Part shown: piece by piece, positions 26,043-30,997 of the stretch | Numbering within the stretch: position 1 is the stretch's first letter | How the letters are laid out: each line of letters begins with the position of its first letter | Assembly: GCF_001044255.1 (NCBI RefSeq) | Contig: NZ_JYNX01000028.1 | Location: forward strand, 13,855-53,993 | Direction: 5' to 3' | Source of the DNA: Mycolicibacterium chubuense | GTDB taxonomy: Bacteria; Actinomycetota; Actinomycetes; Mycobacteriales; Mycobacteriaceae | DNA: 40,139 nucleotides | The notes under the pieces: generated by a model | The model's database searches: none | Told to the model about the DNA's origin: nothing | What the model saw: the letters and a program-made list of their open reading frames with translations, nothing else | Made by a program: the position numbers and the translations under genes

Positions 26043-26048
<6 letters not shown>
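26027..26048. terminator. Inverted repeat holding the nitroreductase and metH stop codons
   Basis: GACTGA (26027-26032) and TCAGTC (26043-26048) with a 10-nt loop. Both arms contain a TGA stop. It is a weak bidirectional terminator candidate; three of the six base pairs follow simply from the facing TGA codons. Confidence 0.35.
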
Positions 26049-29792
<3,744 letters not shown>

Positions 29793-29799
29793 AAGCGTT

Positions 29800-29816
29800 C
29801 CTTCCATGGCGGAAGG
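29800..29816 (-). promoter_or_regulatory. Shine-Dalgarno-sequestering hairpin of metH
   Basis: Minus strand CCTTCC (29816-29811), loop GCCAT, GGAAGG (29805-29800) form a perfect 6-bp stem. The right arm is the ribosome site for GTG 29792. The left arm shares CCT (29816-29814) with the 3' strand of aptamer helix P1, so the two structures exclude each other. Confidence 0.65.
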
Positions 29817-29885
29817 CGTCCTTGACTCTGCCGAGCGTGGCGGACACCGGCTCATCACCGGAACCCGTTGCAACGCCTCTCGACG
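29811..29885 (-). ncRNA. Probable S-adenosylhomocysteine (SAH) riboswitch upstream of metH
   Basis: Read on the minus strand, the leader has the SAH-riboswitch landmarks as I remember them: a 5' CGAG followed by GGCGUUGCAACGG, a variable P2 hairpin, CGCUCGG, then AAGGACGCC. P1 pairs AGGCGU (29878-29873) with ACGCCU (29819-29814). The pseudoknot pairs UCGAG (29883-29879) with CUCGG (29835-29831), one U-G included. P2 pairs GG..CCGG with CCGG...CC around 29838-29867. A -10 box at 29897-29892 would start the RNA right at the pseudoknot strand. SAH rises when homocysteine recycling is needed, and the hairpin below predicts ON regulation. A covariance-model search was not possible here. Confidence 0.65.
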
Positions 29886-29891
29886 GAGAAA

Positions 29892-29897
29892 AGTCTA
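29892..29897 (-). promoter_or_regulatory. -10 box of metH
   Basis: The minus strand reads TAGACT, matching TANNNT. Transcription would begin near 29885, exactly where the riboswitch aptamer begins. The -35 is poor. Confidence 0.5.
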
Positions 29898-30106
29898 ACG
29901 TCGTCTCCCGATCGACGTCTGGACGCCCACCTCGTCGCTGCGATCGACCCGCAACCCGCTCGGCGTGCACGCCATCGTGCGCGCCGGCCATGCGACAGTG
30001 CCGGTCGAGTCGTCGTCTCCCAGGTTAACCAGAAGGCCGCGGAGGCTATTTCGCCGACCGCACCCCGGGGGCGGGTCGATGCCCGTCATCTGACCCACGC
30101 AGGGCT
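29898..30106. other. Intergenic region between metH leader and the PAC2 gene
   Basis: The 326-nt gap between metH and 30119 is the only one over 300 nt. Beyond the riboswitch and the two -10 boxes it holds a 12-bp palindrome GGCGTGCACGCC (29962-29973) and an 8-bp palindrome GGTTAACC (30023-30030). No ORF with coding character and no further RNA structure was recognised. Confidence 0.5.
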
Positions 30107-30112: not shown

Positions 30113-30118
30113 GGATTG

Positions 30119-30997
30119 GTGACCCCCTCGGATTTCGGCGGTCCGAAGCGACCCGACCTCCCTGACCTGCGCGACACGATCGTCGTCGCCGCATTCGAGG
30201 GGTGGAACGACGCCGGAGACGCGGCCAGCGATGCCCTGGAGCATCTCGATGCCATCTGGGAGGCGGAGACGATCGTCGAGATCGACGACGAGGCCTACTA
30301 CGACTACCAGGTCAATCGTCCGGTGATCCGCCAGGTCGACGGGGTGACCCGGGAGCTGGTGTGGCCGTCGATGCGGATCTCGCACTGCCGCCCGCCGGGC
30401 GCCGACCGCGACATCGTGCTGATGCACGGCGTGGAACCCAACATGCGGTGGCGCACCTTCTGCGCCGAACTGCTGGCGATCGCCGACAAGCTCAACGTGC
30501 AGACCGTGGTGATCCTGGGCGCGCTGCTGGCCGACACGCCGCACACGCGCCCCGTCCCGGTGTCGGGCGCGGCCTACTCCCCCGACTCGGCCAAGACGTT
30601 CGGACTCGAGGAGACCCGGTACGAGGGACCCACGGGCATCGCGGGCGTGTTCCAGGACGCGTGCGTGCAGGCGGGCATCCCCGCGGTCACCTTCTGGGCC
30701 GCGGTGCCGCACTACGTGTCGCAACCCCCTAACCCGAAGGCCACCGTCGCGCTGCTGCGCCGCGTCGAGGACGTCCTCGACATCGAGGTGCCGCTGGCCG
30801 ACCTGCCCGCCCAGGCCGAGGAGTGGGAGCAGGCGGTCACCGAGATGACCTCGGAGGACGACGAGATCGCCGAGTACGTGCAGTCGCTCGAAGAGCGCGG
30901 CGACGCGGAGGTCGACATGAACGAGGCGCTGGGCAAGATCGACGGCGACGCGCTGGCGGCGGAGTTCGAGCGCTACCTGCGCAGACGCGGCCGGTAG
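30119..30997 (+). CDS. PAC2-family protein (Rv2125-like)
   Basis: GTG 30119 gives 292 residues. The PAC2 (proteasome assembly chaperone 2) fold is visible in the N-terminal DTIVVAAFEGWNDAGDAASDALEHL, the central VQTVVILGALLADTPHTRPVPVSG, and YEGPTGIAGVFQDACVQAGIPAVTFWAAVPHY. The C-terminal third is acidic and helical (EEWEQAVTEMTSEDDEIAEYVQSLEE). It corresponds to M. tuberculosis Rv2125. Whether actinobacterial PAC2 proteins help build the 20S core is not settled as far as I know. A -10 box 6 nt upstream supports leaderless initiation. It is convergent with the patatin gene, 1 nt apart. Confidence 0.9.
   Translation: MTPSDFGGPKRPDLPDLRDTIVVAAFEGWNDAGDAASDALEHLDAIWEAETIVEIDDEAYYDYQVNRPVIRQVDGVTRELVWPSMRISHCRPPGADRDIVLMHGVEPNMRWRTFCAELLAIADKLNVQTVVILGALLADTPHTRPVPVSGAAYSPDSAKTFGLEETRYEGPTGIAGVFQDACVQAGIPAVTFWAAVPHYVSQPPNPKATVALLRRVEDVLDIEVPLADLPAQAEEWEQAVTEMTSEDDEIAEYVQSLEERGDAEVDMNEALGKIDGDALAAEFERYLRRRGR

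Follow-up and report, generated by a model that had tools for sequence, protein, structure and literature searches.

SAH is the product of methylation reactions and is turned into homocysteine by AhcY, and the studies that introduced SAH riboswitches (Wang 2008, Edwards 2010) reportedly described switches with ON logic. In proteobacteria, SAH riboswitches (Rfam RF01057) have been reported before metH and ahcY, according to the available text of PMC4239095. The SAM/SAH riboswitch (RF01727) also binds SAH, but in the available part of PMC2864571 it is reported from Rhodobacterales only, upstream of metK. In mycobacteria, the riboswitch discussed in the accessible text of PMC8088520 sits on the other methionine synthase gene, metE, and differs from an SAH switch in having another ligand, cobalamin, and in being an OFF switch. 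SAH riboswitches themselves 'were also identified in Mycobacteriaceae', as the Discussion of PMC3766115 put it in 2013. Because the family was named as a carrier then, the occurrence of the element described below is not new, and the two are very likely the same element, although that main-text mention names neither gene, structure nor platform. An earlier sequence-only reading of the locus knew of no described mycobacterial case with the expression platform that it proposed, and this platform was not found in print. The same is true of the leader's anatomy, its conservation and its link to MetH type, in a literature search that left most subscription papers outside, and the available portions of PMC8088520, PMC12713380, PMC5070874, PMC8192938, PMC9495176, PMC2864571, PMC4239095 and PMC4428469 do not describe the metH leader.

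We analyzed a 40,139-nt stretch of Mycolicibacterium chubuense DNA, hereafter the window, in which metH occupies 26043..29792 on the minus strand and begins with a GTG codon (29792-29790). The earlier identification of this gene is borne out by its product, a B12-dependent methionine synthase with the Pfam domains S-methyl_trans, Pterin_bind, B12-binding_2, B12-binding and Met_synt_B12, all above their cut-offs, and with residues 14-1247 matching a solved methionine synthase (PDB 9ssp). Its divergent neighbour is a PAC2-family gene (30116-30997). We consider it highly likely that the metH leader is an RF01057-type SAH riboswitch with a translational ON platform, where SAH as the ligand, the direction of control and the translational level are what we infer.

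Read along the minus strand, the leader begins with a putative −10 box, TAGACT (29897-29892), assigned from the sequence and from the spacing of its counterparts in relatives. Seven bases later comes the 5′ strand of P1, GUCGAG (29884-29879), followed directly by the 5′ strand of the pseudoknot, AGGCGU (29878-29873), then UGCAACGG, the P2 hairpin (29867-29841), CCGCCACG and the 3′ strand of P1, CUCGGC (29835-29830). The P1 strands are placed by both the RF01057 alignment and an 81-row alignment of actinomycete leaders (A2); P2, whose sequence and length vary among relatives, is placed by the RF01057 alignment, and four of its pairs change on both sides on A2. After a short linker and CAAGG, the 3′ strand of the pseudoknot, ACGCCU (29819-29814), pairs with the AGGCGU strand, with covariation on A2. 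It runs on through UCC and five further bases to GGAAGG (29805-29800), which contains the ribosome site (AAGGA, 29803-29799) and is the pairing partner of a putative anti-Shine-Dalgarno arm, CCUUCC (29816-29811). The three bases CCU (29816-29814) are therefore common to the pseudoknot 3′ strand and the anti-Shine-Dalgarno arm. All of these segments, the three shared bases included, were found on the minus strand where the sequence-only reading had placed them, but its names for the two helices are reversed: in the Rfam structure line GUCGAG/CUCGGC is P1, while AGGCGU/ACGCCU lies outside the nested structure and is the pseudoknot. The naming bears on the mechanism, since the helix in competition with the anti-Shine-Dalgarno arm is the pseudoknot and not P1.

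A reading-frame explanation of the leader was discarded. An open reading frame extends metH upstream to a TTG at 29873, but the leader varies in length among relatives, and since the P1-to-pseudoknot length occupies all three residues modulo 3, the leader is not coding. An ATG at 29807 falls within the loop of the hairpin, and relatives often lack it; their commonest loop is GCTAC (21 of 88).

The search against RF01057 that the sequence-only reading proposed returned a full-length match. In a permissive search of 421 bases of leader, RF01057 was the best match and fell at the predicted place, the minus strand from 29887 to 29807, covering all 78 model positions at 27.1 bits (E 0.0038); RF01727 was absent from the three families matched in that scan. 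The gathering score of RF01057 is 37 bits, and the leader is unannotated because it lies below this cut-off; with Rfam's curated cut-offs, no RNA family was matched anywhere in the whole window. In this the window resembles its relatives and differs from the Rfam family. Among 19 mycobacterial metH loci, 11 matched RF01057 at 26.3-31.0 bits and the other eight gave no match at E up to 1, so that all 19 stay under the gathering score. Over whole genomes at E 0.001, where stricter filters lose weak matches, RF01057 matched 2 of 41 genomes and 1 of 25 genomes of the genus, and the host genome was not matched. Other actinomycete loci, found with a mycobacterial model, reached the cut-off in 12 of 20 cases (37.7-46.0 bits), and an aptamer before ahcY (L001) scored 42.6 bits. 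Since these copies pass, the mycobacterial form is one of a group with accepted Rfam members, while itself lying just below the line. The folding energy of the leader alone is unremarkable (z −1.51; equalled by 20 of 200 shuffles), and its minimum-free-energy structure contains P2 and the CCUUCC/GGAAGG hairpin without P1. Taken over all tests run other than the curated score, the leader is very probably an SAH riboswitch.

The sequence-only reading took this aptamer to be known mainly from proteobacteria, but it is more widespread among actinomycetes than this suggests. We trained a covariance model, R1, on 24 leaders including the window's own, and it matched 104 of 347 genomes of the order (25 of 71 genera) and 75 of 393 genomes of the class (17 of 122 genera); these sets, like the genus set below, are samples of larger groups and were scanned with the stricter filters under which weak matches are lost. 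A pattern scan of named genomes gave at least 120 matches, and those listed include, beside mycobacteria, Micromonospora, Amycolatopsis, Actinoplanes, Frankia, Kribbella, Nocardioides and others. We collected 216 distinct aptamer sequences with a search pattern in which portions of P1 and of the pseudoknot 5′ strand are fixed, and 163 of them stand before metH, as in the window, 40 before ahcY and 13 before neither, so that most lie upstream of SAH-recycling genes. They fall into a T-type, found in mycobacteria and a few others, with GGCGU and ACGCC, and a C-type with GGCGC, mostly paired with GCGCC.

Several other targets were observed individually. Hydrolysis of SAH also yields adenosine, and an SAH-type aptamer precedes an adenosine deaminase family gene (PF00962) at L064, in Micromonospora endolithica, and at L232, as well as at L091, where the gene was judged by eye. 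Another, at L206, precedes metK (PF00438, PF02772), a gene that according to the available text of PMC4239095 is not controlled by SAH riboswitches in proteobacteria. Two aptamers lie just upstream of a MOSC-domain gene, at L207 (PF03473) and, judged by eye, at L223, and both genomes (G313 and G480) have a second aptamer at metH. The literature search found no paper on an SAH riboswitch with adenosine deaminase, nor actinomycete SAH riboswitch targets such as adenosine deaminase or metK. A T-type aptamer with metH was also seen at L140, in a contig labelled as an Acidobacteria MAG, which is perhaps a mycobacterial contig in a mixed bin.

Within the aptamer, the ligand-core stretches UGCAACGG, CCGCCA, GCUCG and CAA agree with RF01057, with two junction bases swapped: the Rfam consensus has CCAG..CAAC, which becomes CCAC..CAAG in 79 of the 81 actinomycete rows of A2. 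The pseudoknot differs as well, reading AGGCGY/RCGCCU here and GAGCGC/GCGCUC in the Rfam consensus line, and the six-pair P1 here starts at the predicted transcript start. A change at two Rfam-conserved bases, together with metK among the targets, could indicate a conserved fold whose actinomycete form binds another or a broader ligand (SAM, or both). We regard this as improbable. The G..C to C..G change looks like one swapped, compensatory pair, the rest of the core matches, and the targets are mostly metH and ahcY (163 and 40 of 216), the two genes reported in proteobacteria in the accessible part of PMC4239095.

Across the genus, the aptamer follows the type of MetH. When the N-terminal 200 residues of MetH were searched against 198 genus genomes, 196 gave a match, which was strong in 175 (E at most 1.3e-60) and weak in 21 (E 1.9e-34 or worse). 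R1 matched 176 of the 198, namely the 175 genomes with strong MetH matches and G123, which has no MetH match in the N-terminal search; the 22 genomes without an R1 match are the 21 with weak MetH matches and G177. A chance match is excluded by this frequency. The R1 match lies directly upstream of metH in all 30 loci fetched (L004-L033, the window's copy included), and in the host genome the single match is at metH.

We then consider the 23 genomes with a weak or no N-terminal match, G177 and G123 included. In 18 of them there is a different full-length MetH, 36-39% identical to the window's, and no aptamer match. Two (G149 and G072) have pieces of the same MetH, 89-92% identical, at or near a contig end and with the 5′ part outside the match; G101 has distant MetH relatives and a short remnant only; and G177 and G123 have no MetH match. 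RF01057 is over its cut-off in none of the 23. Its weak matches there do not exceed 23 to 24.5 bits, apart from 27.9 bits in G123, and since RF01057 at E up to 1 also matches 5 of 14 control genomes, these weak matches (G123 apart) are noise. All 163 MetH proteins associated with an aptamer are closer to the window's MetH than to the other type. This split agrees with the two MetH types that PMC4428469, in its available text, describes for mycobacteria: it calls the form found in M. tuberculosis and M. leprae MetHa, and assigns the common type to most rapid growers and to M. smegmatis mc2-155. Judging from the identities, the other MetH of the 18 genomes is probably MetHa. The aptamer is thus constant beside one mycobacterial MetH type in our sample. 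A first assignment of the MetH of the strongly matching relatives to the M. tuberculosis type was reversed by the same partly available source and the identities, and the low MetH protein level of M. tuberculosis was discarded as support, as that species has the other MetH type.

Compensatory change in P1 and the pseudoknot, a test that the sequence-only reading had proposed, is present across actinomycetes. It was measured on A2, whose 81 rows represent 80 of 243 loci picked for spread plus a weak second match in L071 (28.2 bits), and which was fitted to P1 and P2 as modelled in R1, leaving the pseudoknot out of the fit. Over the 19 pairs of P1, P2 and the pseudoknot, 97.5% of 1,429 cells are standard-paired, compared with 26.7-43.0% when the strands are slid by 1-3 columns. 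Nine of the 19 pairs change on both sides, a number that 2 of 500 shuffles equalled, and 106 cells are changed on both sides compared with 28.9 in shuffles (0 of 500 as high). P1 cells are 97.3% paired, with three pairs changed on both sides and the three inner pairs invariant, and pseudoknot cells are 98.3% paired. At pseudoknot pair 12-120 the rows hold C-G 56 times, U-A 20 times and U-G once, with four unpaired; the larger set has 119 C-G, 91 U-A, one U-G and three C-U. In a structure-free scan of column pairs, two P2 pairs rank first and the 12-120 pair third. The fourth-ranked pair, 120-126, cannot be a helix, which means that lineage alone can give a covariation signal, and the pseudoknot varies mostly by a single U-A/C-G split, which runs in part along phylogenetic lines. 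The T-type also occurs in two propionibacterial MAGs and one Nocardioides, so that the U-A/C-G change is not confined to one branch.

The position of the −10 box is supported by its fixed distance from P1. A TANNNT motif ends 6, 7 or 8 nt before P1 in 50, 39 and 3 of the 92 T-type leaders, thus in all of them, and at any other distance up to 49 there is one match; in C-type leaders the distance is broader, mostly 8-11. P1 can be extended outward by one base in 108 of 124 C-type leaders but in 15 of 92 T-type leaders. Both the fixed spacing and the rarely extendable P1 are in line with a mycobacterial transcript whose first base is that of P1, which would place the transcript start at or next to 29884. 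A sigma-70 scan found no promoter here, with hexamer rules that may not suit mycobacteria. Upstream of the −10 box, at 29911-29927 on the minus strand, lies a DNA block, GGCGTCCRGACGTCGAT, which recurs within 4 mismatches at set positions in 47 of 71 dereplicated promoters, compared with 3 of 710 shuffles, and which may include the −35 element or a site for a regulator. Such a block invites the reading that the conserved stretch as a whole is a promoter or DNA-binding site and not an RNA switch. This is very improbable, as the block lies outside the predicted transcript, while the paired changes, variable-length P2 and pseudoknot inside the transcript are best explained by RNA.

In the platform, 88 of 90 T-type metH leaders retain the pairing of CCUUCC with GGAAGG across a loop, and the other two (L063 and L125) have GGGAGG there. 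In C-type leaders the arm is mostly CCUCC with GGAGG, so that the two strands of the hairpin differ together between the types. For platform analysis the 216 sequences were reduced to 212 by removing two without the AAGG anchor and two that were too short. Stems of at least 7 pairs were present in 184 of the 212 leaders, compared with 180 of 1,060 with shuffled right-hand parts, and the anti-Shine-Dalgarno arm overlaps the pseudoknot strand in all 212, a figure partly set by where the stem was sought. The first start-like codon in any frame falls 4-8 nt after GGAAGG in the 88 leaders (GTG 57, ATG 23, TTG 8). Three forms of the hairpin have computed energies of −7.8 to −9.0 kcal/mol, and the pseudoknot as a duplex has −8.3 kcal/mol with six pairs and −9.6 kcal/mol with seven; in these models the energies are matched, which is what a ligand-tipped switch would need.

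In folding models, occupying the pseudoknot strands lifts the openness of the Shine-Dalgarno site from 0.019 to 0.518, with a rise in 88 of 88 leaders, and masking 12 other bases in the same leaders gives 0.025; for leaders cut at different 3′ ends the two values were 0.023 and 0.529, with the site opener in 79 of 81. Masking the 3′ strand of the pseudoknot alone likewise gives 0.518. Since the gain comes entirely from this strand, it shows geometry and not the effect of a ligand, and the modelled opening follows almost necessarily from how the strands are arranged. An additional OFF pairing seen in the minimum-free-energy structure of this leader, between the pseudoknot 5′ strand and bases after GGAAGG, was rejected as a general feature: across 81 leaders it had a mean of 0.039 and a median of 0, with high values in the window's copy and L005.

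From these elements we propose the following sequence of events. Transcription, positioned by the −10 box, would begin with P1's first base or one adjacent to it. Without SAH, CCUUCC would pair with GGAAGG and hide the ribosome site. With SAH, the aptamer would close its pseudoknot with ACGCCU, withdrawing CCU from the anti-Shine-Dalgarno arm, so that the hairpin would be down to half its pairs and the ribosome site would open; rising SAH would then mean more MetH output. The sequence-only reading had proposed an ON-switch working through shared bases, and the strand overlap on which it relied holds, although the site would be freed by formation of the pseudoknot and not of P1. As a prediction from leader sequences, the ON-switch reading is well supported in silico.

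An SAH riboswitch with this overlap could instead affect mainly the level of the transcript, through RNA stability or Rho access for example, rather than the access of ribosomes. In the ahcY leaders of other actinomycetes the overlap occurs in a partly terminator-like hairpin, with a T run of at least 4 after the hairpin in 10 of 40 and of at least 3 in 22 of 40, and the aptamer may therefore drive transcription control there. At metH, however, a T run of at least 4 follows the hairpin in 0 of 161 leaders (0 of 90 T-type, 0 of 71 other), and the right arm of the hairpin doubles as the ribosome site, a start-like codon following after 4-8 nt. The T-run counts suggest translational control at metH and transcriptional control in some ahcY leaders, and we give control at the transcript level of metH a small probability, slightly above that of a different ligand. 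Translational control thus remains our preferred reading for metH.

The metabolism of the host bears on how such a switch could work. AhcY is present in the host genome (G000, contig C16), and no MetE N-terminal domain (PF08267) was found in that genome, so MetH may be the host's only methionine synthase. If the host relies on MetH alone, a tight OFF state would be costly, which counts against an ON-switch. As for the cobalamin riboswitch of mycobacterial metE, the one cobalamin RNA match in the host, on contig C35, scores 24.6 bits against a cut-off of 31.5, and a two-riboswitch logic for this host, with B12 acting on metE and SAH on metH, was dropped because no MetE domain was found.

On a broader reading we are evenly divided. 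Actinomycete SAH riboswitches may form a coherent sub-lineage with a swapped junction pair (G..C to C..G) and a recast pseudoknot, which in mycobacteria would be a fixed module, its transcript starting on the aptamer and its platform a translational hairpin, present with one of two MetH types and absent with the other, and which in other actinomycetes would serve a wider SAH-disposal regulon including adenosine deaminase, metK and a MOSC-domain gene.

The Rfam cut-off has kept the element hidden, as neither the window nor any of its 19 tested relatives reaches 37 bits. If our reading is true, species with the other MetH type should lack the SAH switch. It would also provide a testable SAH reporter in a genus whose discussed methionine synthase switch, in the literature available to us, is the metE cobalamin riboswitch, and most of the sampled mycobacteria (176 of 198 genomes) would read their methylation load directly into the translation of methionine synthase.
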